DNA of 38,619 nt from Candidatus Brocadia sapporoensis (GTDB taxonomy: Bacteria > Planctomycetota > Brocadiia > Brocadiales > Brocadiaceae): contig NZ_MJUW02000030.1 in the NCBI RefSeq assembly GCF_001753675.2, forward strand, positions 1-38,619. Reading direction: 5' to 3'. The notes beneath the pieces are model-generated. The model saw only the letters and a program-made list of their open reading frames with translations. It had not been told where the DNA came from and ran no database searches. Of the stretch, positions 3,052 to 18,882 are shown piece by piece (the stretch's first letter is position 1; every line of letters starts with the position of its first letter). Position numbers and translations under genes: made by a program.

Positions 3052-4901
<1,850 letters not shown>

Positions 4902-6369
4902 ACATGCAAAGATTGCGTCACGATCCATTGCCTCAGCAAATACCGCAGTAAAAAACACCGCACTTCAATATATTGCAGAAGGTATTCTTTCCTCAACCTC
5001 TGCGATCAAGGCAGAAAATGAAAAGGATGTCTTGGCGGCTCAAAAAGCCGGGCTTTCTGAGGCTATGATCGACCGGCTTCGGCTCACTGACAGCCGTATC
5101 GGGGGTATGGCTGAAGGCGTCAGACAAATCATTCATCTTGCCGACCCTGTCGGTGAACTTCTGTGGGGACATACCCGTCCAAATGGGTTACAAATTCAGA
5201 AAGTACGGGTACCCATCGGCGTTATTGCCATTATCTATGAATCCCGCCCCAATGTTACAGCCGACGCGGCATCCTTATGTTTAAAGGCGGGAAATACCGT
5301 CATTCTGCGCGGCGGGAAAGAATCGATTCATTCAAATATTGCAATTTATAAAATTCTCACATCTGCTTTGGAAAGAGCAGGACTGGACACACGGGGTATC
5401 CAGCTTATCGAACTTATAGACCGTGAGGCTATCGACTACTTGTTGAACGCAGATCAATATATAGATGTTGTTATTCCCCGCGGTGGTGAGGCGCTTATTC
5501 GCACGGTTGTAGAAAAATCTACCATACCGGTTATTAAGCATTACAAAGGAGTGTGTCACACCTATGTAGACGAATATGCTGATCTCACCATGGCTGAAGA
5601 GATTTGTTTTAACGCAAAGGTACAACGCCCCGCCACCTGTAATGCTATGGAAACGATGCTGGTACATGAAAAGATCGCGCAAAGGTTTTTACCAGTCGTG
5701 ACAAATAAATTGAGAAGTTCAGGCGTAGAAATACGGGGTTGTGATAAGACCGGTAAAATCGCGGGTAATATGAAACATGCCGTAGAAGACGATTATTATC
5801 AGGAATACCTTGACCTGATCTTAAATATAAAGGTAGTAAAAACCCTGGATGAAGCCATTAGCCATATTGCCACGTATGGATCAAATCATTCTGATGCCAT
5901 CGTCACCGACAATGTCAATTCCGCCATGAAATTTACGCGGGAGGTTGATTCGGCAGCCGTGTACGTCAATGCCTCCACACGTTTCACTGACGGTTACGAA
6001 TTTGGCATGGGCGCAGAAATTGGCATCAGCACTGACAAGCTTCACGCCCGAGGCCCCATGGGACTTGAAGAACTTACCACATACAAATTCGTAGTTTTTG
6101 GAAATGGACAGCTAAGGAAATAAGATTGGGGAAAATCTTACCGATTGTCCACAAGTTTATGCCCACAATCATTGCTGTCCAAAATTGAATTTTCACCGCT
6201 TTGGCACTGATTCTCTCAAAGATCCTTATCGTGAGAGTCTGTTTGAGAATCTTAAAAAAACGGTTCAACCAGCCATTTCAACTTTCTTCTTATCATTCAT
6301 ATAAATTTTTAGTAGAATTTTAAAAATGAAAACCATATTCGAAAACCTCATTGAGTAAAGGTGTTAATC

Positions 6370-8430
6370 ATGGAAGAGCATGTCATGCCTTTAAATGACC
6401 TGCGCCTGAGCGAACAGGAGCGTCTGACTCGCAAAGACTATTTGGACTTTACAGAAAGAGATGCAACCCTGTTGAAAGAGTTAAACGGCCTTATCCATCG
6501 GCATGCTGACGATATCATAAGCAATTTCTTCCGTCATCTCCTCCGGTTCGAAAAAACCAGGGTATTTTTAGCCGATGGAGACACGATGAAAAAGGTTAAA
6601 CGCACGCAAAAGGAATATCTCCTGATGTTAACTGAGGGGAATTATGGCGAGAAATACTTTACGCATCGTTTAAATGTGGGAAAAACTCACGATCGCATCG
6701 ATCTGCATCCCAATTGGTATATCGGCGCATACTGCTTATATCACAGACTGATCTTTCCTCTTATCATTGAAAACTATAAAGACCAGCCGGACAAGATGAC
6801 AGACTATCTCCTCGTGATGGATAAGATCATGAACCTGGATATGCAACTGGCAATAGACGCCTACATTCACAGTTACCACGCAGCACTTGAAGAAAAGATA
6901 AGACTTACCGAGACACAAAACAGAAAGATAGAAGCCGCCAACAGGTCCAAGAGTGAGTTTCTCGCCAACATGTCACATGAACTGCGGACTCCATTAAATG
7001 CAATCATTGGTTTTTCTGAAGTGCTTAGGGATAATCTGTGCGGTGTTTTAAATGAAGAACAGACGGAGTTCGTTATTGATATTCACAGCAGTGGCCAACA
7101 TCTGTTGCAGATGATCAATGATATTTTGGATCTTTCAAAAGTAGAATCCGGTAAACTGGAATTAAAATATGAAGAATTTGAGATAGGCAAGGCTATAGAA
7201 GCCGTCTTAATAACTCTGAAAGGGCTTGCAAACAAAAAGTCACTTACTATAGAAACCATAATCCACAATCCATGTGACCGGCTCGTTGCAGACCTTACCA
7301 AATTCAAACAAATGTTATATAATCTGCTTTCCAATGCTATTAAATTTACTCCGGAAAAGGGAAATATTACTCTCCATACGACATCACTGAAAAGAGAAAA
7401 AGATTTTATTGAAATTAAAGTTATGGATACAGGCATCGGGATAGCTCCCGAAGATTACTCAAAAATTTTCGTGGAATTTTCACAGGTCGACAGTTCTCAC
7501 TCGCGCAAATACGAAGGAACAGGATTGGGTCTTGCCCTCACGAAGAAATTAGTTGAAATGCATGGTGGCAAAATAGGCTTTGAAAGCAAAGTGGGTGTTG
7601 GCAGTACCTTTTATTTCATCCTGCCGGTAAATACAAATGCCCAAGTTGAAAAAGAGAGTGCCCATTTATCTGAAAAACCGGTAAACCGGGGGACTATTCT
7701 GGTAGTAGAAGATGACCCTAAGACGAGCGAACTATTATGTGTTTTTTTAAACAAATCAGGATACCAGACAATTACCGCCTTCGATGGTGAAGAAGCCTTG
7801 CTAAAGGCAAGGCAATTTAAACCTTCTGCTATTACCCTGGACATAATGCTCCCCAAAAAAGACGGATGGGAAGTATTAAAAGAACTGAAGGAGGATACCG
7901 AGGTTAAAGATATTCCTGTACTGGTAATTTCTCTTGTAGATAATAAAGATATCGGTTTTGGGTTGGGTGCAACAGATTATCTCAGCAAACCGGTAAGCAG
8001 GAATGATCTCTTGTCAAAACTCTCCTCATACGGATTTCTCCCCAAAACCAATAACTTATACACGAAGGTATTGATTGTTGACGATGATCATAAATCGGTA
8101 GAATTACTCAACACCATCCTCCGTGCTGAAGGATATGATGTTTTAACGGCTTCAGGAGGAAGAGAAGGAATCGAAAAGGCTTTTCACCATAAGCCTGACC
8201 TGATCCTTTTAGACCTGATGATGCCGGAAGTCAGTGGATTTGACGTTGTGGATAAATTAAGAATGTCACCGGAGACTAACACAATTCCCATTATCGTGGT
8301 TACTTCAAAGGATCTGACACCGTCAGATAAGGAAAAGTTAAATCACTGCGTTTCATTAGTGGTAAAAAAGGGGATGTATTCCAACGAACGATTCCTGAGC
8401 GACATTGCCGCCTTAAGAAAACATTTATAA
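6370..8430 (+). CDS. Globin-coupled hybrid histidine kinase with two receiver domains
   Basis: A soluble hybrid sensor kinase of about 686 residues. Residues 15-175 match the protoglobin/globin-coupled sensor fold: the VGKTHDRIDLHPNWYIGAY stretch carries the likely proximal heme His (His107). HisKA follows (SEFLANMSHELRTPLN, His203), then HATPase_c (NLLSNAIKFTPEKG, DTGIGI, GTGLGLALTKKL). Two receiver domains follow, with phospho-acceptors Asp491 (TLDIMLPKKDG) and Asp615 (LLDLMMPEVSG). No membrane segment or DNA-binding domain is seen, so output would go through phosphotransfer. A GTG at 6361 is in frame, but it lies inside the AAAGGTG Shine-Dalgarno that best serves ATG 6370. Globin sensors bind O2, CO or NO. 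The ligand here cannot be read from sequence. The gene converges on the 7TM kinase with a 26-nt gap. Confidence 0.9.
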   Translation: MEEHVMPLNDLRLSEQERLTRKDYLDFTERDATLLKELNGLIHRHADDIISNFFRHLLRFEKTRVFLADGDTMKKVKRTQKEYLLMLTEGNYGEKYFTHRLNVGKTHDRIDLHPNWYIGAYCLYHRLIFPLIIENYKDQPDKMTDYLLVMDKIMNLDMQLAIDAYIHSYHAALEEKIRLTETQNRKIEAANRSKSEFLANMSHELRTPLNAIIGFSEVLRDNLCGVLNEEQTEFVIDIHSSGQHLLQMINDILDLSKVESGKLELKYEEFEIGKAIEAVLITLKGLANKKSLTIETIIHNPCDRLVADLTKFKQMLYNLLSNAIKFTPEKGNITLHTTSLKREKDFIEIKVMDTGIGIAPEDYSKIFVEFSQVDSSHSRKYEGTGLGLALTKKLVEMHGGKIGFESKVGVGSTFYFILPVNTNAQVEKESAHLSEKPVNRGTILVVEDDPKTSELLCVFLNKSGYQTITAFDGEEALLKARQFKPSAITLDIMLPKKDGWEVLKELKEDTEVKDIPVLVISLVDNKDIGFGLGATDYLSKPVSRNDLLSKLSSYGFLPKTNNLYTKVLIVDDDHKSVELLNTILRAEGYDVLTASGGREGIEKAFHHKPDLILLDLMMPEVSGFDVVDKLRMSPETNTIPIIVVTSKDLTPSDKEKLNHCVSLVVKKGMYSNERFLSDIAALRKHL

Positions 8431-8456: not shown

Positions 8457-10997
8457 CTATCGATGAAACACAATATTTGAAGGAACTATGCTATTTAATG
8501 GCAAAATGACATAAAAATCTGTTCCTCTCCCTTCTTCGCTTTCCATATAGATACATCCCTTATGATCCTTTATTATTCGATAGACAACAGCAAGACCAAG
8601 CCCTGTTCCCTTGTCTTTATTCGTAAAGAATGGTTCAAAGATGTGTGCAATTTTTCCCTTAGGAACCCCCATGCCATTATCTGAGACCTTTATCACAAAA
8701 TATTGTTTTCCCGTTTGCTCTGATTGAGAAGGATCAAACGTGAAAAATATACTCTCGGAATTTATTTTTGCCATTTTTCTGAATTCAGAAACCGTGTCTA
8801 TGATTTGAGTGTTCACCTGAATACAGCCGTTTTCCGGTAGTGCGTCAAGACTATTTTGCATAATATTAATGAGCACCTGCCTTATTTTATCCTCATCTGC
8901 AACTAGCTGACATCTTTGCTCCTCTAATGTCGCGGTTATCTCCGCACCTTTATTTGCAGCCGTATGTTTGAGCAGATTTATGGTGTCCATTATACAACCA
9001 TGAGGGTCTATACTCCGTATAACAGAATTAGAAGGTTTTGCCAAATTTAGCATATCTTCAATAATTCTGTTGATCCTTCCGATTTCCTTTAAGGCAATCT
9101 CACGGAAGTTCGTATGGAACTCAACATCATCTCTTTTGTAAGGGAGGAGTTGAAAATAGGTATTTATGGCTACCAGGGGATTTTTTATTTCATGGGCAAT
9201 ATTAGAAGCGAGAGTGCCAAGATATGCAAGCCGGTCGGCATGTTGTTTTTCCATCTGCAGCAATTTCAGTTCCGTCAAATCGGTCAGAATTATGAGTGCG
9301 CCGAGCTTTTCTCCGGCCTCAGTTTTTAGCTGTGTTATGGTCACGCTGCACGGAACTTTTTTTTCGTCTCTCTCGATGAACGTTTCGATATCACGATAGT
9401 CTACATTATTCTTTAGGGTATGACGCAGCAAATGATGGGTGTCTTTATTAAGAGCACTGAGCGTAGTCCCGTTAGAACCGGTACTTTCTAAGCCAAGGAT
9501 AATTTTTGCCTCACTATTGATCAGCGTGACTTCCTCATGAATATCTACAGCAATTACCCCACATTTTAAACTTTGAAGAATATTATCCCGATAGGTCTTG
9601 GCCTCATCCAGTCTTGAATAGAGGCGGGCATTATGAGCAGCCATCGCCAATTGGCCGGAAAATGCAAGAAACATCTGAATATCTTCCTGGGTAAAGACAC
9701 TCTTACTTACCTTCCTGCCCAGGAGGATTATGCCAAGGAGGTTGTTTTCCTGAAAAACCGGGACACAACTGTCTATGTCCATGGATGCCATGGTTTTTTC
9801 CAATACCTGGTCAAGCTCACTATGCGTAAAACGATTCAATTGTTCTTTCGAAAGAACGGTTCTCTTTTCGCGAAGCCACGTAACAACAGCATCATGGTTG
9901 AGGAAACACAACGTGTCTTCAGATACCAGATTGATAGCCGCTTTTAGGTGGTAATCTTTGGTTTTTTCATCCTTTATCAGTATTCCTATCTTCTGAATAC
10001 CGACAGAGTCATATAAATATTGGATGGCAAAGTGAAGGAGTCTGTTCAAATCATGGATAGAAGAAAACATCATCATAGAACCGCTCAGTATCTTCGGGTG
10101 GCTATACCTGGTATGGAAGAAATTGTTTTCAATAAAGTGTTGAATTGATTCTCTGGCAATCACAAAGGTTAAGACCATTACCATTATGGATACTACGTTA
10201 GTTACGGTCTCTTTGTACTCTGATACCGGGAGTATTCTGCTCATGACGAGTCCAACTGTAAAATAGATTATACTGAGAATGACGGAGAGAGCGGCATAAA
10301 CAGTGCTGCGTTTAATCACTACGCTGATATCCATGAGATGATACTTTGCGATAGCGTAAGCGACAGTAATCGGAATAGGAACGGCTACGAGCGGGACAAA
10401 TACTTCAGCCTGCCACAGACCTAATATTGGCATGACAAAATTGGTAATGATTCCCAGAAATACGGACATTGCCACCCCGAAGTATAAATACTGGACCTGC
10501 AATCTCTTTATCCCGTAAAAGCAGACACTTTTCCTGTAAAGGGTATATAATGAATATGCCATGCAGGTAATAAAATAAAGCCAAAATATGGGAAATAACG
10601 GACTGTATTTAGCCTGAGGAAATCGTTCTACAAAGGACACGGACTCGACGATATGGGAAGAAAATAAAACGAGGAGAATGCTTATGACAAAAAAGGATAT
10701 GCTGTAATAACGATCAATAGATCTTTCCGTCCGGTCAGGAAAAACAGTCGAAAAAGAAAAAAAGGAAGATGGAATGAAGACGGCGGCACAAAAAACGAGT
10801 CTGAGTCTGAAGGTAGCAAATGCGGGATCTGTTGTCTGGAGCAAAAAATAAATAAAGAATATCCACACGGCCACGGCTTGCGCAAAAACGCAAAATCGCT
10901 TGTTAATGATGTTTGTTGGATTTCTCAGAAGTACAAAGATTCCGATCCCAGCAATCAGCAGAAAAAGGAAAATGAACATTGCCTGACTTATGAGCAT
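8457..10997 (-). CDS. 7TM-GAF-PAS sensor histidine kinase
   Basis: A membrane histidine kinase of 846 residues. The first ~290 residues carry about eight hydrophobic helices resembling the HisKA_7TM sensing domain. A GAF domain follows (about 310-465), then a PAS domain (about 470-585, starting LQSLKCGVIAVDIHEEVTLIN). The NtrB-type HisKA box is LGTLASNIAHEIKNPLVAIN with phospho-His602. HATPase_c is at about 700-835 (NIMQNSLDALPENG, VSDNGMGVPKG, GTGLGLAVVYRII). It is the last gene of a run read right to left: sigma-54 regulator, radical SAM, ketosynthase, this kinase. Its ATG is 5 nt from the ketosynthase stop, with AGGA upstream. It is therefore the likely partner of the regulator at 14127-15506. 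The domain layout resembles PrsK-type kinases, but no PEP-CTERM or exosortase gene is present. Confidence 0.9.
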   Translation of the reverse strand: MLISQAMFIFLFLLIAGIGIFVLLRNPTNIINKRFCVFAQAVAVWIFFIYFLLQTTDPAFATFRLRLVFCAAVFIPSSFFSFSTVFPDRTERSIDRYYSISFFVISILLVLFSSHIVESVSFVERFPQAKYSPLFPIFWLYFITCMAYSLYTLYRKSVCFYGIKRLQVQYLYFGVAMSVFLGIITNFVMPILGLWQAEVFVPLVAVPIPITVAYAIAKYHLMDISVVIKRSTVYAALSVILSIIYFTVGLVMSRILPVSEYKETVTNVVSIMVMVLTFVIARESIQHFIENNFFHTRYSHPKILSGSMMMFSSIHDLNRLLHFAIQYLYDSVGIQKIGILIKDEKTKDYHLKAAINLVSEDTLCFLNHDAVVTWLREKRTVLSKEQLNRFTHSELDQVLEKTMASMDIDSCVPVFQENNLLGIILLGRKVSKSVFTQEDIQMFLAFSGQLAMAAHNARLYSRLDEAKTYRDNILQSLKCGVIAVDIHEEVTLINSEAKIILGLESTGSNGTTLSALNKDTHHLLRHTLKNNVDYRDIETFIERDEKKVPCSVTITQLKTEAGEKLGALIILTDLTELKLLQMEKQHADRLAYLGTLASNIAHEIKNPLVAINTYFQLLPYKRDDVEFHTNFREIALKEIGRINRIIEDMLNLAKPSNSVIRSIDPHGCIMDTINLLKHTAANKGAEITATLEEQRCQLVADEDKIRQVLINIMQNSLDALPENGCIQVNTQIIDTVSEFRKMAKINSESIFFTFDPSQSEQTGKQYFVIKVSDNGMGVPKGKIAHIFEPFFTNKDKGTGLGLAVVYRIIKDHKGCIYMESEEGRGTDFYVILPLNSIVPSNIVFHR

Positions 10998-11002
10998 GTC
11001 TT

Positions 11003-12253
11003 TTATTCCTGCGAATATTTCCTTAATACAAGAACGGCGTGAGTCCCCCCAACACTATGGCTATTAATCAACGCCGTGCCCATAGGGAAACGCCTGGAGT
11101 GGAGTGGAACATAATCAAGGTCACAGAGAGGATCGGGCATCTCCAGATTAATGGTGGGAGTAACAAATCCGTTCTTTAAACAAAGGCTCGTTGCAACTAC
11201 CTGAAAGCCACCTCCGGCCGCGTATGCCTGTCCTGTCATAGACTTTATTGAACTTACCGGAATTTTATACGCATGCTTTTGAAAAAATGTTTTGAAGGCA
11301 TTGGTTTCTGACACATCATAACTCGGAATAGCATTCCCATGTGCACAGATATAGTCTATCTCTTCCCTTCTCATTTTGCCAAAAGTTAATGCCTGCTCTA
11401 TTGCGGAAACCAACGCCTGCCCACTAAGATCAACCCGAACGACATCCTGCGCATCACAGGTAGATGCATAGGATACAATTTCAGCATATATCGTTGCTCC
11501 CCTCTCTAACGCATGATTTAGTTCTTCGATCACCACAGCAGCTCCACCCTCACTGATGACCATGCCATCACGTCCTTTATCGTAGGGTCGCGAAGCCTTC
11601 TCAGGTGCTTCATTTCTTTTTGAAAGAATTCCCAGGGCGCAGAAGGTAGACATGGCAAAGGGGAAAATGGGGGCATCTGAACTCCCCACGACTGCCACAT
11701 CCACCTCTCCCCGCCTAACCATCTTAAAACCCCAGTTTATAACTTCAAGCCCGGTTGAGCACCCGGATGACAGCGTTGAGTTGGGTCCGGTAATTTTCAA
11801 TTCCGAGCATATATAACCAGTTGCCACGTGTGGCGTAAATTCAGGGGCTGTAAAACGGTTAACCGCCTTTGGACCTAACTCCAAGAATCTCCGGTGCTGG
11901 CTTTCATAGATATCATTTTCAGCGCCTATCGTTGTCCCAAAGCACACGCCGCACCTGTCCCGGTTCTCGGTGCTCAGGTCTATTCGGGAGTCTGAAACTG
12001 CCATCTTTGATGCTGCAACACCAAAATGGGTAAATCTTCCGCTTCGCTTGACCAATTTTGAGTCAAAGTAATCGCAGGGATTAAAGTCCTTTACCTCACC
12101 TGCAATCTGTGTACTGAACGGAGATGAATCAAAGGAAGCAATTTTTTTTATCCCCGATCGTCCTTTAATCAGAGCATCCCAATACGCATCTTTTCCATTA
12201 CCATTGGGGGCTAATATCCCCAGGCCCGTGATAACGACGCGCCTTGCTTTCAT
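11003..12253 (-). CDS. FabF-like beta-ketoacyl-ACP synthase with atypical active site
   Basis: A 416-residue thiolase-fold condensing enzyme of the KAS I/II (FabB/FabF) family, which elongates acyl-ACP with malonyl-ACP. It has VVITGLGILAPNG at the N-terminus, nucleophile Cys165 in TLSSGCSTGLEV and first active-site His305 in CAHGNAIPSYDVSE. In KSMTGQAYAAGGG the second active-site His of the family (KSMTGH) is Gln342. The C-terminal NSFGFGGTN loop reads NSHSVGGTHA, changing both loop Phe residues (to His399 and Val401). It may therefore be a specialised condensing enzyme, or one with weak decarboxylation, rather than housekeeping FabF. The ATG at 12253 overlaps the radical-SAM stop as ATGA, with GGAGG upstream. 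An upstream in-frame GTG falls within that Shine-Dalgarno. Family is certain; the specific substrate is unknown. Confidence 0.9.
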   Translation of the reverse strand: MKARRVVITGLGILAPNGNGKDAYWDALIKGRSGIKKIASFDSSPFSTQIAGEVKDFNPCDYFDSKLVKRSGRFTHFGVAASKMAVSDSRIDLSTENRDRCGVCFGTTIGAENDIYESQHRRFLELGPKAVNRFTAPEFTPHVATGYICSELKITGPNSTLSSGCSTGLEVINWGFKMVRRGEVDVAVVGSSDAPIFPFAMSTFCALGILSKRNEAPEKASRPYDKGRDGMVISEGGAAVVIEELNHALERGATIYAEIVSYASTCDAQDVVRVDLSGQALVSAIEQALTFGKMRREEIDYICAHGNAIPSYDVSETNAFKTFFQKHAYKIPVSSIKSMTGQAYAAGGGFQVVATSLCLKNGFVTPTINLEMPDPLCDLDYVPLHSRRFPMGTALINSHSVGGTHAVLVLRKYSQE

Positions 12254-14073
12254 AAAACTTTTCCTCCCCACGAAATATCCGTCTCCGCCGGAGAGAAATT
12301 TTTCTCTGCCAGTTTACGGCTGTATGCGTTTATTTTTCGGTAAACATCATTCAGGAAGCGATAATCCGTTGTCAACAAAGCCAAATCGCTTTTTGTCTTA
12401 AATTCCTCTAATCCTCTCTGGCCTGTAAATCCTGCACTCCTTGCCGCAAGACAATGCTCATCGGACACGTTTACCGTGTAACCCATTTCCCGCACCTTTT
12501 TCTCCATGAAGGCGGACATCTTCAGCATGTCCTGGAAGTTTATTCCCTGCAGGGAGATATTCAGGTCTCTCCAGGTGCTTGGGTCTTTCGCCAGTTCATA
12601 CTCGTATCGTAAGACCGTTTGGTGATAATTATCGGGCAAGTTAAATCCGAATCTTTCTGGCTCTTTTTGCCATGCCGTCCCAGGTAAGGGAGCAGCAGGG
12701 GTTATCAGAACCGAATCCGGTTTGCAATCCTCATGTTCTAATTTCCGAAGTAAATGCAAATTCTCTTCCAAAATCTGCTCGTGTGTTATACCACTTCCAT
12801 ACGGTACTGGGCAAGGATAAATCATACTGATTCCAACATCAAGATGCATTCTTTCGTTGCGGGATGCCTGCTTTAGGGCCTTAATCGTGAAGTAAAAATC
12901 CTCCGTAGTATTCCCCTTATTCATTATCGCTGAAAGAACTTCGTCGTTTGCTGTCTCAACGCCAAGAAAAACTGCCCGAAGTCCTGAGCGTACGATCTTT
13001 TCATAGGCTGCAACAAGCTCTTCTGCCCTCTCTTTTGCCCTGGTCTCTGCCCGGATGAACATTGAATACTCAATCTGCAAGCCTTCCGTTAAAATAGCAT
13101 CGGCGATTCGGCTGCTCAATGAAACGGGTGTTGCAGAACCTGCAAAACGAAAGAGTCCGATACCTGTTTCCTCCAAAGTATTTTTTATTTCTTGAATGGT
13201 CAGTGCAACATCTCTGGCTTGATATCTGCCGGTAATATTTGGATGCGTACAAAACTTGCACTTCCCGTAATAACAGCCAGAGGATTCGTTTATAACTGCA
13301 ATATTTACCTTCCTGTCCTCCTTTTCATAGAAGGGAAAAGGTTTTGCATTTAGAGGAAGCCGCTTAACCGGTGTTTCCCTCACGATACCGTTGGCATCTC
13401 TATATAATAAATTAAAAATCTTACCCGCCTCTGCAAGTTCCGTAATTTTTTTTATTACATCGGATTTCAGACCTCCGCAAGCAGAAATTTCCCGCACAAG
13501 CGTAAGAATCTGTACCAGCGTTACTTCACCCTCAACATCAATACAAAAGTCAAAAGGGCTACTTTCCAGCGCACATGCCTTAAATTGATTGACCTGTGGT
13601 CCGCCGGCGATCACCAAAGTCTCCGGGCTTTGTTCTTTTACCATTTGTGCAAACTTCTCGGAATAGGTAAATCTGTCGCCAAGCCATGTCTTAATTCCTA
13701 GCACTTTAACCCGATCTTTACGCACCTTGTTAACCAGAGCAGAAAGGTATCCTTCCATTTTTTCTTTGATAATCTCATTGAGATTATTCTGGAGGATGTT
13801 CCACTCATTCCTGGACGCTACCCTATCTTCTTCCGTCTTTGGCTTAAAAACATGGGGAAAGAGTTCGAACAGCTTTGATGTAAGGTTGTTTTTTGTAAAT
13901 GTGGTATAGAATTCAATACAAGCCGGATCTTCAACCTCAACGGAAAAACCTGCGTCCCGGCATGCTCTTGAGAGTATTCCGATACCATTCTCCCTGAAAC
14001 AATCACTAACGGAATATGCCTTTCCCATAAATGAATTCCATAGCATAATGTCTGTGCCTTGTGTTGTCTGCAT
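12250..14073 (-). CDS. B12-binding-domain-type radical SAM protein
   Basis: A 607-residue cytoplasmic radical SAM enzyme. Residues ~1-225 look like a B12-binding-type Rossmann domain (ETLVIAGGPQVNQF, FDFCIDVEGEVTLVQIL), but no DxHxxG cobalamin ligand motif is visible. The radical SAM barrel starts at NESSGCYYGKCKFCTHPN: Cys267, Cys272 and Cys275 are spaced CX4CX2C rather than the usual CX3CX2C. FRFAGSATPVS and RAVFLGVETANDEVLSAI fit the SAM-binding barrel strands. AGGAT sits eight nucleotides before ATG 14073. Translation is coupled to the ketosynthase through an ATGA overlap, so the two probably act on the same substrate, plausibly an acyl chain. Reaction unknown. Similar pairs occur in anammox ladderane-candidate clusters; assignment to that pathway is inference. 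Confidence 0.85.
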   Translation of the reverse strand: MQTTQGTDIMLWNSFMGKAYSVSDCFRENGIGILSRACRDAGFSVEVEDPACIEFYTTFTKNNLTSKLFELFPHVFKPKTEEDRVASRNEWNILQNNLNEIIKEKMEGYLSALVNKVRKDRVKVLGIKTWLGDRFTYSEKFAQMVKEQSPETLVIAGGPQVNQFKACALESSPFDFCIDVEGEVTLVQILTLVREISACGGLKSDVIKKITELAEAGKIFNLLYRDANGIVRETPVKRLPLNAKPFPFYEKEDRKVNIAVINESSGCYYGKCKFCTHPNITGRYQARDVALTIQEIKNTLEETGIGLFRFAGSATPVSLSSRIADAILTEGLQIEYSMFIRAETRAKERAEELVAAYEKIVRSGLRAVFLGVETANDEVLSAIMNKGNTTEDFYFTIKALKQASRNERMHLDVGISMIYPCPVPYGSGITHEQILEENLHLLRKLEHEDCKPDSVLITPAAPLPGTAWQKEPERFGFNLPDNYHQTVLRYEYELAKDPSTWRDLNISLQGINFQDMLKMSAFMEKKVREMGYTVNVSDEHCLAARSAGFTGQRGLEEFKTKSDLALLTTDYRFLNDVYRKINAYSRKLAEKNFSPAETDISWGGKVL

Positions 14074-14126: not shown

Positions 14127-15506
14127 TCAGTTTTCTGTGTCTGCAATTCCATATTTCTGCATCTTATAACTAATAACGCGGCGGGTAGTTCCGAGGAGCC
14201 TGGCTGCCTTTGATTTCACACCCCCGGATTGATGAATAGCCTGTTCAATAAGTTGCTTTTCAACTCTTCCTACTTCATCCTCTAACGTGATTCGCCAGTT
14301 CCCATCTGACTTCACTCGTTGCAGATTCCGGGACGAAATACCGGTAACTTCAATTGGAAGATGTTCAGGAAAGAGCGTCAACTCATTTCCGTAAAGTGCA
14401 AGAGTTCTCTCCATAACATTCTTCAGTTCCCTAACATTTCCCGGCCAATGGTACTTTAGTAATGCTTCCATAGCTTCTTTTGAGATGTATTCCATTTTTG
14501 CATGACACTCCTTTCGAAAAATACCGAAGAAGTGTTCTACCAATTGTGGAACATCCTCTTGTCTCTCACGAAGTGGCGGAAGATATAGGGGAACTACATT
14601 GATACGATAGTAAAGGTCTTCACGAAATCGGCCATCTTTGATCATGGATTCCAAATCTCGATTTGTTGCGGCAATAACACGCACATCCGTCTTTATAACG
14701 GCATGGCTGCCTAAACGGGAGAACTCTTTCTCCTGAAGGATTCTCAGGAGTTTAGCTTGCAGCGGGAGGCTTATCTCACTGATTTCATCGAGAAATATCG
14801 TACCACCTTCAGCTATTTCAAATTTCCCCAGACGCCTCTCATATGCACCGGTAAATGATCCCTTCTCATGCCCAAAAAGTTCCGCCTCGAGCAATTCGCC
14901 GGCCAGATTTGGACAACATACCACAATAAAGGGCTCCTCCCGGCGGTTACTATGAAAATGGATTGCACGCGCCGCTAATTCCTTACCAGTTCCACTTTCC
15001 CCCCGTAAAAGAACCGTTGAGTCCACCCGGGAGACTCTGGAAATAATATCAAGTATTTCCTCCATTACCCTGCTACGTCCTTGGATTAGTTTGTTAATCA
15101 AATGGCTTTTAGATTCTGAACGAAGATACCGAACTTCCCGGCTTAAGCTTTTAAACTGCAATGCTTTTTCTATGGTTATCTTAATCTCTTCTACCCCAAA
15201 GGGTTTTACAATATAATCTAACGCACCAAGCTTAACCGCCTCGACAATTGCTTTTACGTCATTTACTGCGGTTAACACGACGACACCAGCCTCTTGACCC
15301 AAAGGTTGCAACCTCCTGAGGAATTCCAACCCATTCATTTCATGCATTTTTATATCAAGAAGGACAAGATCCACATGTTCTTTTTCCAGTATCTTTAAGG
15401 CTTCTCTTCCATTGAGAGTACTTAGTACCTTATAGCTATCCTTTACGATAAGCCTGAGCGATTCAACGACACTGGATTCATCATCTACAAGTAATATTGT
15501 TTTCAT
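14127..15506 (-). CDS. NtrC-family sigma-54-dependent response regulator
   Basis: A 459-residue transcriptional activator that would remodel sigma-54 RNA polymerase when phosphorylated. The receiver domain starts at [12 protein letters not shown], with phospho-Asp51 in [11 protein letters not shown] and Lys in YIVKPFG. The AAA+ domain has Walker A GESGTGKE, the sigma-54 contact loop as GSFTGA (usual GAFTGA), Walker [11 protein letters not shown] and [12 protein letters not shown] Fis-type helix-turn-helix closes the protein ([22 protein letters not shown]). ATG 15506 is chosen because the receiver fold starts there; the in-frame upstream ATG at 15563 adds 19 hydrophobic residues foreign to the family. 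It heads the run radical SAM, ketosynthase, 7TM kinase, so that kinase is its likely phosphodonor. No convincing sigma-54 promoter was found in the 276 bp upstream. Confidence 0.93.
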
Positions 15507-15782
15507 AGAGAATCTGAGACAAACAAGAAAGATAAAATACCCTTTTACCCGGCGCCATAACACTACTGTCCACTGTAAATCATTCTTTTGAAATACAACC
15601 TATTAAACCCCTGATAAATATTCTTTTGGAAGAACAAGCACCCTTCCAACGCTCTTACAGAAATAAGTCATCATTTGAAATAAATTTCGACAATATTTCT
15701 GTGGGCGGTCCATTCGGAATATCTATCGCAAACGCCTGTTGAAGGAGTAGAAGAAAGGCCTTTTCGGTGTCTGTTTTGATAA

Positions 15783-17237
15783 TCAATCTGATTGAGTAAC
15801 AAGGATATTACTCAACTCATGTGAAATGCCGGATGAGGTATTTCGGTTTTCTAAATTCTTTACCTTACTCTCTAATTCCCTAACGGCACTTAAACTTAAT
15901 TGTAATTTCCTAATTTCACTTATATCCGAAAATATCATAATTGCCCCCAACTCACCGCCAGCATCTAACAAAGAAGTACTTACTGAATATACGGCATGTG
16001 TAGTTGGGTGTGTAACCTCGCGCATCTCATACGTCTTCTTGTCTTTTAACGTTCTCAAAATAATATCCGTAAAGAGAGAACCGATGTGTTTTACATCCTT
16101 TCCGAGGATATCGTGCGAAGAAATGCTCAGCATCTTAGCAGCATTCTTGTTAAAGGCATTAATTCTGCCATTGCTGTTTATGGCAATTACACCACACGGG
16201 ATATTTTCTAAAATGTTCTCATTTTGAATCTTCCTAAGATTTGCCTCACGATACAGAAATGCATTCTCAACTGCCATACCTATATACCCGGCCAGCATGG
16301 ATAATAACTCAATGTCCTCATCAAAGAAAACCTTTCCGGTAATCTTGTTTCCTAATGTAATCATGCTACTGAGGTTTCCATAAGCCAAGACAGGAATACA
16401 CAAACTGGCTTGCAAAATATTTATTTCCCTCTGAATATTTATCGCTTCACGTATGCTCAATTTATTACTTGCGACCTCCCGTTCTATAACGTCCTTGGTC
16501 AATATTTGATAATTTTTCGCTAGCCAGAGCATTATGCTCTCATTATTGTTAAAGCTAATTTTTTTAGCAACCGCCTCATCTATGCCTAGATACCGATAAG
16601 GCCTGCTCAGTCCTTCTTTCTTGTATACCAGCACAAATACCGCCTTACCCACACCAAATATTTCAGACATGGCCTCAACCGTCAAGTCTGCAAGTTTCCC
16701 AAGATCATGGACTCGCGCTAATACCTTCGAGAATTTTTGAAAGACCTCTTTGTATTTAAGATATATTTCACTCGTAGTCGGTTGCCTGTTAATTCCAGGT
16801 TCTGATAGCTCAGTTATTTTATTCGCTGGCTGTATATTTTTTATATGCGAGTGAATAAACCCCAGTTCTTTTTTCAGTGATTGTTTTTCCAACGCCCTCT
16901 TTGACGCATGCTGTATTGCATCATGAGTCAATGGCTTTTCAAGCAGTTCATATGCGCCGATCTTCAGAGCATCATCGGACAACATCGGCAGAGACTCCGG
17001 AATTACCAAAACAACCGTTGGTTCAATATTGATTTGTTTAAATTTTTCCAACAATTTGGTTGCACCATCGTTCTCCAGAAGAACGTCTAAAAACGTTATA
17101 TCGATGTCTTTATTAAACAACAACTGCAATGCATCCTCATGAGACTTTGCATAGTAAATTACATAATCACCATTTAAAGACTTTTTAAAAAGGTTATTAA
17201 CGGAATTATCATCCGAGACTATCAAAATTGAGTACAT
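15783..17237 (-). CDS. Receiver-GAF-PAS signalling protein without kinase domain
   Basis: A 484-residue soluble protein. It has a receiver domain at 1-120 (phospho-Asp51 in ITFLDVLLENDG, Lys in LLEKPLT), GAF at about 165-325 and PAS at about 330-450 (ENIPCGVIAINSNGRINAFN), then a short coiled coil. It stops at SGISHELSNILVTQSD, which resembles the start of a HisKA H-box (SHEL), but no dimerisation or ATPase domain follows in any frame. The GAF-PAS part closely parallels that of the 7TM kinase at 8457-10997 (GVIAVD/GVIAIN, GALIILTDLTELKLLQ/GAIMIFSDISEIRKLQ). It could be a phosphorylatable adaptor for that system or a kinase truncated long ago. ATG 17237 has AAGGGG eight nucleotides upstream and a TATAAT hexamer at 17270-17265. 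276 bp separate it from the sigma-54 regulator. Confidence 0.82.
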   Translation of the reverse strand: MYSILIVSDDNSVNNLFKKSLNGDYVIYYAKSHEDALQLLFNKDIDITFLDVLLENDGATKLLEKFKQINIEPTVVLVIPESLPMLSDDALKIGAYELLEKPLTHDAIQHASKRALEKQSLKKELGFIHSHIKNIQPANKITELSEPGINRQPTTSEIYLKYKEVFQKFSKVLARVHDLGKLADLTVEAMSEIFGVGKAVFVLVYKKEGLSRPYRYLGIDEAVAKKISFNNNESIMLWLAKNYQILTKDVIEREVASNKLSIREAINIQREINILQASLCIPVLAYGNLSSMITLGNKITGKVFFDEDIELLSMLAGYIGMAVENAFLYREANLRKIQNENILENIPCGVIAINSNGRINAFNKNAAKMLSISSHDILGKDVKHIGSLFTDIILRTLKDKKTYEMREVTHPTTHAVYSVSTSLLDAGGELGAIMIFSDISEIRKLQLSLSAVRELESKVKNLENRNTSSGISHELSNILVTQSD

Positions 17238-17847
17238 AATAAACCCCTTTCTAAAAAATCTTTGATTATAGAGAAAATGTCAATCAAATAAACATATCTA
17301 TGAGCTTTTTAAATATGATACATAAGATTAATTGAACAATTATGTTCAAATCGCAATTACTGTACCAATTGTTGATAATATGTCGATTAAACATTTTAAG
17401 TATGTTGATTTATTATACATAAGACCATTGCGCCTTTGATTAAAAAATTTAAATCAAAAACAATAAACAAAAATGTGTTTACTTTATTGACATATTTTGT
17501 TGCATTATTTTTCATTTTCAGATATAAGTTTACAAAATTATCCAAAGAAGCTAACCGTCCGAGAAACCAAAGGCAAAAGAAAAATGATCATTTTTACAAA
17601 TTCATACCATGTTTTAGACTGTAGTTTTTCAATAAATGTACAATTATAGCTATAAAATGAGAATCTTTATTCCTGGAAAAGGGACATTAAATAATGTTGT
17701 AGGTTTGTTCTATACCGTGTATTTTTTTGATCATAAAAAAATTGTTATTATCCAAAGAATGTAAATTAGTTATGAATCTTTTATTAAATTTTTCCTCGTA
17801 ATTTGGCACAAAAAGTGTAATCTATAAATGTCTTTGAGGACTAAGGT
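17238..17847. other. AT-rich divergent regulatory region
   Basis: This 610-bp gap lies between the divergent REC-GAF-PAS and REC/HD-GYP genes and is strikingly A/T-rich. It contains a TATAAT hexamer for the leftward gene (17270-17265), an operator-like dyad (17332-17349), and a TGGCAC-N5-GTGT sequence (17804-17818) that only partly fits a sigma-54 site before the rightward gene. A 62-codon frame at 17436 has a TTG start, no Shine-Dalgarno and A/T-driven composition; I do not accept it as a gene. Confidence 0.6.
17332..17349. promoter_or_regulatory. Operator-like perfect dyad
   Basis: TTGAACA and TGTTCAA are perfect 7-bp inverted arms separated by ATTA. The dyad lies upstream of both divergent signalling genes, about 95 bp before the leftward start. 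Such a symmetric site suits a dimeric regulator. In A/T-rich DNA it could also arise by chance. Confidence 0.35.
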
Positions 17848-18882
17848 ATGGAACAAATAACAAAATCGACAAACATCCTGGTAATCGATGATGACCTTGG
17901 TGTAAGGGAATCGCTAAAGATCATTTTAAGAGATAAATATTGTGTTTCCACCACATCAAATATTGACGAAGCTATTGTCAGTATGGATACCGTAAAGCCG
18001 GAAATGATCTTTCTTGATATAAAAATGCCTAAAGCAAACGGTCTGGATTTTCTCAAACAGATGCGTTCCGCAAACACCACCATCCCTATAATCATGATTA
18101 CGGCTCACCCATCTATAGAAAACACCATTACCTCTTTACGGAATGGCGCATTTGATTTTATTGTGAAACCTTTTCAACCAACAGAAATCCTTAATGTAGC
18201 AGAAAAGGCGTTGCATCATAGTAACGAACTATGGGAAAAAGACATGTTGGTAAATAATTTGAGGAAGGCCGCACAACAAAATTTCTTTTCAACGACAGAA
18301 GCGCTTTTACACGCTATAGACGCAAAAGATTCTTATACTGCTGGTCACTCTAAACGAGTGTCAGAACTTTCAGCATTTGTTGCCAAAGAATTGGGTAAAA
18401 ATGAGCCGGAAATTGAAGTCCTACGATATAGTGCCTATCTTCATGATATAGGAAAAATTGGAGTCGGCGATCTTGTGCTGACAAAACCAAGCTACCTTAC
18501 TCCGGAAGAATTTCATTTAATGAAACGTCATGCCGAGATTGGTTATAAAATTCTTACGCCAATAAAATTCTTGGAAAAATGTTTACCCATCGTGAGACAT
18601 CACCATGAATGGTATAATGGCAAGGGTTATCCTGATGGTCTGGAAGGATCTGATATTCCCTTTGAAGCCAGTATTCTTTCAATTATAGATGCGTATGATG
18701 CCCTGACCACAGACAGACATTATCATAAGAAATATTCCCACCAGAAAGCCTGTGAAATTATTACCCAAGGGATACACACTCAATTTACGCCAACCGTGAC
18801 AGAAAAGGTACTCGCCATTATTAATCGCCATCATGAAGCATACTTACAACAGGGACGGGCAGAAGAATCCTTAATTCTCTGA
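17848..18882 (+). CDS. Response regulator with HD-GYP domain (c-di-GMP phosphodiesterase)
   Basis: A 344-residue protein predicted to hydrolyse cyclic di-GMP under receiver control. The receiver domain covers 1-125, with the acidic pocket at LVIDDDLG, phospho-Asp57 in MIFLDIKMPKANG and Lys in FIVKPFQ. The HD-GYP domain covers about 150-325: the HD pair is in YLHDIGKIGV and the GYP motif in HHEWYNGKGYPDGL. Further metal-ligand His residues occur in MKRHAEIGY and IVRHHHEW, and DAYDALTTDR follows. The metal-binding set looks complete, so activity is likely. AAGG precedes ATG 17848 closely, and GAGGA lies further up. The HDOD-GGDEF protein at 23242-24795 is a potential opposing cyclase in this window. 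Confidence 0.93.
   Translation: MEQITKSTNILVIDDDLGVRESLKIILRDKYCVSTTSNIDEAIVSMDTVKPEMIFLDIKMPKANGLDFLKQMRSANTTIPIIMITAHPSIENTITSLRNGAFDFIVKPFQPTEILNVAEKALHHSNELWEKDMLVNNLRKAAQQNFFSTTEALLHAIDAKDSYTAGHSKRVSELSAFVAKELGKNEPEIEVLRYSAYLHDIGKIGVGDLVLTKPSYLTPEEFHLMKRHAEIGYKILTPIKFLEKCLPIVRHHHEWYNGKGYPDGLEGSDIPFEASILSIIDAYDALTTDRHYHKKYSHQKACEIITQGIHTQFTPTVTEKVLAIINRHHEAYLQQGRAEESLIL

Follow-up and report, generated by a model that had tools for sequence, protein, structure and literature searches.

The FabF-type ketosynthase KS3, encoded on the minus strand at positions 12253..11003 of the 38,619-nucleotide stretch of Candidatus Brocadia sapporoensis DNA analysed here (the window), lies in an operon of sensory and regulatory genes, and we tentatively propose that it makes a lipophilic product sensed by the linked kinase, with autoinduction through sigma-54. 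The operon context, which the initial annotation did not consider, is the strongest clue to KS3 function. In 5' to 3' order, all on the minus strand, the operon comprises a receiver-GAF-PAS gene (15783..17237), a sigma-54-dependent response regulator (14127..15563; PF00072, PF00158, PF02954), a B12-binding radical SAM protein (12250..14073; 607 aa), KS3, and a HisKA_7TM-GAF-PAS-HisKA-HATPase sensor kinase (8457..10997; 846 aa; PF16927, PF00512, PF02518). The last codons of the radical SAM gene overlap the start of KS3, and the kinase begins 5 bp after KS3 ends. Orthologues of the sigma-54 regulator are 458-459 aa long, with the start at the ATG at 15506. The receiver-GAF-PAS protein has lost a kinase domain that is present in its 714-722-aa Kuenenia and 699-aa Anammoxibacter homologues; its gene is partly duplicated in two relatives (G024 and G029). 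Divergent from the operon, a receiver/HD-GYP protein is encoded on the plus strand (17848..18882; PF13487, PF00072) and is syntenic in most relatives.

KS3 starts at an ATG, is 416 aa long and matches both ketosynthase domains of Pfam. Like the elongating KAS I/II enzymes (FabB/FabF), it combines the thiolase fold with a nucleophilic Cys and the first catalytic His. The best PDB match of its AlphaFold model (pLDDT 88.8 from a diverse alignment, 66 from close orthologues alone) is B. subtilis FabF, with a TM of 0.91 over the whole length, and KS3 shares about 42% identity and the Cys-His-Lys residues with FabF/KAS II enzymes (B. subtilis 4ls5, Synechocystis 1e5m). It scores 418.7 bits against the TIGR03150 fabF equivalog model, below the cut-off of 493.75. 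The active-site residues are C165 (SSGCSTG), H305 (CAHGNAI), K337 and Q342 (KSMTGQ), followed by the loop NSHSVGGTHA at 397-406.

The initial annotation described an intact enzyme that kept Cys165 and His305, carried Gln342 in place of the second His and had a rewritten gate loop, and each of these points stands. Cys165 and His305 are both present, Q342 aligns without gaps opposite the second catalytic His of solved FabFs (FabF His340) with no His at the equivalent position, and a dN/dS of ~0.05 against orthologues ~79-88% identical indicates strong purifying selection rather than simple decay. That His399 and Val401 occupy the gating Phe sites was right for one of the two: V401 aligns with Phe400, the gating residue of FabF, whereas H399 aligns with Phe398, a residue other than the gate. 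A pseudogene or sequencing error is ruled out by the dN/dS value together with the occurrence of Gln in many independent assemblies. Assignment as a KS-beta or chain-length factor was rejected as well, since these lose the nucleophilic Cys and KS3 keeps C165. A search of the open literature found no paper combining a ketosynthase with a Cys-His-Gln active site.

To place these residues in evolutionary context, we examined KS3 orthologues, which occur in 27 of 59 related genomes (the window's own counted) at 58-88% identity. C165, H305, H399 and V401 are unchanged in all 29 ortholog rows, and V401 and H405 are fixed in the gate loop. Residue 342 is more variable, with Gln in 22 rows and His in seven. 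All seven His342 rows fall into a single Brocadia clade (99/99) that is surrounded by Gln rows in the tree; Gln342 is also present in the orthologues that diverge most, those of the Anammoxibacter genome G039 and of G018. The simplest history suggested by the tree would be a change from His to Gln on the stem, followed by one return to His through a single-base codon change. Thus Gln is fixed in most of the clade but not throughout it, and orthologues with KSMTGH do exist, yet they do not reduce Gln to a one-off mutation.

Gln342 is not the key feature of the enzyme. The His342 clade keeps the same operon and the same H399/V401 loop, so Gln and His look interchangeable at this position, and given the return of His in that clade, Gln342 alone does not define the enzyme. 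Judged from the alignments, residue 342 is not the main departure of KS3 from FabF. Relative to FabF and canonical KS-alpha, the substitutions T307N, T309I/M and E351Q are fixed in KS3 orthologues, as are Phe to H399, F401V, N405H and Ala to G164, and gate loop 2 (DAYHMT-like in FabF) is rewritten; Lys337 is kept. The two threonines (KS3 307 and 309) contact the pantetheine arm in FabB/FabF, and both are lost in KS3. In place of the GFGG gate loop with Phe400 and Asn404, KS3 has H-S-V-G-G-T-H. Phe400 acts as the gate of FabF, whose two gate loops are coupled through Asp265 and Asn404 (PMC7138838); the corresponding couple in KS3 orthologues is Asp/Glu267 with His405. The changes in the threonines, the gate Phe and the gate couple suggest that gating and binding of the second ACP substrate were rebuilt around an intact Cys-His pair. 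H399 is unlikely to be a pure stand-in for the lost His, because it persists where His342 has returned.

The genes of the operon are tightly linked and inherited together. The host, an anammox planctomycete, has hydrazine synthase, and the named relatives carrying the locus are Ca. Brocadia, Jettenia, Loosdrechtia, Kuenenia hertensis and Anammoxibacter. KS3 is found in 27 genomes, the radical SAM protein in 26 and the kinase in 27; the radical SAM gene is missing only from G032, a genome that is 58% complete and whose contig breaks off at the locus. Radical SAM and KS3 frames overlap or nearly touch across loci, and KS3 and the kinase are separated by -1 to 12 bp at almost every locus. The kinase adjoins KS3 in Brocadiaceae loci; the Anammoxibacter kinase homologue is 33% identical and lies ~7 kb from KS3. 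In that Anammoxibacter locus (L056, G039:C37, 3267-8703), a second B12 radical SAM gene lies directly 3' of KS3, and a nearby gene encodes a 327-aa protein that matches no Pfam family. In one further genome (G034), which lacks both KS3 and the radical SAM gene, a similar regulator and kinase adjoin each other, as if the two enzymes had been added to a pre-existing regulator/kinase pair. Such linkage and co-inheritance of synthase and sensor genes is the pattern of quorum-sensing pairs, with KS3 as the putative ligand synthase.

The radical SAM protein matches PF04055 and, slightly under the cut-off, PF02310, and it scores under every NCBIfam equivalog cut-off. Its cluster motif, CYYGKCKFC (C267, C272 and C275; window 13249-13275), has the spacing CX4CX2C where the usual form is CX3CX2C, and an alignment of 12 orthologues shows no change at any of the three Cys.

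Eight genomes (G001, G003, G004, G006, G007, G008, G010 and G018) have extra genes between the regulator and the radical SAM gene. These are a canonical KS-alpha with Cys-His-His, a KS-beta that lacks the catalytic residues and whose frame is disrupted in G004, and an ACP reading frame, which Pfam confirmed in two genomes and direct reading in another two. Coordinates of this cassette at three of the loci are 4485-7066 in L044, 10704-13869 in L046 and 4612-7577 in L054. KS3 may pair with a second subunit, with KS-alpha, KS-beta and ACP as neighbours in these eight relatives; the window's own locus has no such cassette. Where upstream DNA is visible, the His342 clade falls wholly among cassette carriers, and two carriers have Gln342; with one transition only, a link between cassette and His342 cannot be proven.

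Upstream of the operon, 130 bp before its first gene, lies a sigma-54 (-24/-12) promoter, TGGTACAGTAATTGC (17353..17367, minus strand). The strict motif TGGYRY-N5-TTGC occurs 11-200 bp upstream of the operon's first gene at 15 of 20 loci; its spacers differ between loci, and these sites account for 15 of the 22 motif matches in 519 kb. Given a sigma-54 site and a sigma-54 activator in the same operon, autoregulation would be the natural inference. The local regulator is missing in eight loci, including those of Jettenia and Loosdrechtia; a 51-53% homologue is encoded elsewhere in genomes without the local copy. Across the genome, sigma-54 sites were no more frequent than in the control (77 versus 73 matches), so that a regulon cannot be read from them and only the operon promoter is informative.

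Two further planctomycete families also have a related ketosynthase adjacent to a kinase of this type. In G112 (L120, G112:C31, 1-10506), the order is ICMT methylase, ketosynthase, 7TM kinase, receiver-kinase and sigma-54 regulator; the set is flanked by divergent genes for HD-GYP and FadL proteins, as are many anammox loci. In G091 (L152, G091:C33, 2446-12608), the order is sigma-54 regulator, ketosynthase, B12 radical SAM, kinase and 7TM kinase. Both ketosynthases group with KS3 (92/89), and all three, together with KS-alpha, stand apart from planctomycete FabFs (98/97). They keep Cys-His-His and show partial gate changes (NSSGFGG and NQALGIGG, respectively), and for this reason the linkage of the ketosynthase to a 7TM-type kinase is probably older than the Gln and Val changes. 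The three lineages offer a natural series for testing the second His and the gate: C-H-H/Phe in G112, C-H-H/Ile in G091, and C-H-Q or C-H-H/Val in KS3.

We also weighed whether KS3 belongs to ladderane biosynthesis and is among the divergent FabF paralogues that Rattray et al. put forward in 2009 (PMC2649909). The anammox-limited pairing of a radical SAM protein with a FabF does resemble Kuenenia lipid clusters, and the Kuenenia paralogues Kuste3606, Kuste2805 and Kuste3348 are likewise FabF-derived with an altered active site, two Kuste paralogues having Glu342 changed to Gln (PMC2649909). They lack the Cys and both His, however, whereas KS3 keeps the Cys and the first His, and they lie in FASII/ladderane clusters rather than in a sensor operon. 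The host genome has separate ketosynthase pairs of the Rattray type on contigs C59 and C79. These tandem pairs, at 3732-6248 (L059, G000:C59) and 4028-6556 (L060, G000:C79), each include one member without the Cys and both His, like the 2009 Kuenenia paralogues. Hydrazine-synthase-positive anammox bacteria make ladderanes. KS3 is nevertheless absent from 20 hydrazine-synthase-positive genomes, among them all sampled genomes of families f2 and f4 and a complete, single-contig genome (G020) from the genus of Kuenenia hertensis that is probably K. stuttgartiensis. Because of these absences the locus is not part of the ladderane core, and the phylogenetic distribution rules out KS3 as an essential core enzyme; any ladderane role at all appears very improbable.

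We favor, still tentatively, the reading in which KS3, a thiolase-type enzyme with the FabF fold, has been remodelled to accept an unusual acyl partner and forms the biosynthetic core of the sensor operon. Cys165 would receive an acyl chain from an ACP, and His305, with Gln342 or His342 as second hydrogen-bond donor, would support condensation or acyl transfer. In C-H-N ketosynthases, Asn is the second hydrogen-bond donor. Because KS3 has replaced the Ppant-contacting threonines as well as the Phe and the Asp-Asn couple of the gate, the partner would not be gripped as malonyl-ACP normally is. The translationally coupled B12 radical SAM enzyme would then modify the KS3 product, probably by methylation; the 7TM kinase would sense the lipophilic product and drive the sigma-54 response regulator, which would activate the operon's own promoter and so produce autoinduction. 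In favor of this sensing model we count the tight gene spacing, the shared genomes, the conserved sigma-54 site, the G091 and G112 gene sets with ketosynthases that group with KS3, and the Asp/Glu-His pair that replaces the FabF gate couple. FadL (PF03349), which adjoins the HD-GYP gene in most of the 13 FadL-carrying anammox loci, also suits a hydrophobic compound; in rhizobia, FadL modulates extracellular long-chain AHLs (PMC9938287). Against the model we count the loci without a local sigma-54 regulator, the window's own locus, where no FadL gene lies beside the HD-GYP gene, and the reversion of Q342 to H342 in one clade, which makes the catalytic weight of Q342 less certain. Moreover, the same co-occurrence would arise if the regulator were specific to a neighbouring lipid-modifying pathway. 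Our confidence is limited because gene content cannot separate sensing from plain pathway regulation.

The main rival is a membrane role, which we regard as quite possible, if somewhat doubtful: KS3 and the radical SAM enzyme would produce a specialised fatty acid or membrane lipid, under a two-component system that serves only as a local pathway regulator and senses membrane or solvent stress. All genes of the operon are of lipid type or regulatory, the KS/KS-beta/ACP cassette adds a minimal synthase in eight loci, and FadL channels also take part in hydrocarbon uptake (PMC7728783). One ketosynthase and one radical SAM enzyme are thin for a bulk lipid, however, as there is no reductase, dehydratase or transferase gene near KS3 within the window, and the kinase linkage recurs in the two other planctomycete families with different methylases. 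Compatible with either operon reading is a narrower proposal about the chemistry, that KS3 has lost malonyl-ACP decarboxylation and is an acyltransferase only, passing the acyl group to a non-carbon acceptor. Such a role would suit an active site that keeps the Cys, first His and Lys but has replacements at the second His, the conserved Glu and the two Ppant threonines; we nonetheless consider it improbable, as a natural clade of orthologues carries His342, and Gln is able to donate that hydrogen bond too.

The sensing model has parallels among lipid quorum-sensing operons, such as Ralstonia PhcB/S/R and Xanthomonas RpfF/C/G, in which the signal-synthase gene lies beside a kinase and a regulator and, in Rpf, an HD-GYP protein. 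The KS3 operon similarly places a putative synthase gene beside a sensor kinase and a response regulator; unlike the methyltransferase or crotonase of those systems, it uses a FabF-type ketosynthase and a B12 radical SAM enzyme, with sigma-54 output. The kinase and regulator also match the PrsK/PrsR models of PEP-CTERM/exosortase systems, at scores (94.5 bits for TIGR02916 and 370.9 for TIGR02915) far under the cut-offs of 300 and 502.6.

For anammox bacteria, which grow as aggregates, the published signaling work that we encountered concerns acyl-homoserine lactones (cited in PMC10945367). More speculatively, and with less confidence than in the operon model itself, anammox bacteria and some other planctomycetes might have a chemical signaling system of their own, in which a remodelled FabF-type ketosynthase and a B12 radical SAM (or ICMT) methylase would make a new lipophilic autoinducer, the adjacent 7TM kinase would be its receptor and sigma-54 autoinduction would be the switch. 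If this is true, synthase, sensor and regulator in one operon would provide a direct genetic handle on the anammox bacteria's own signal.
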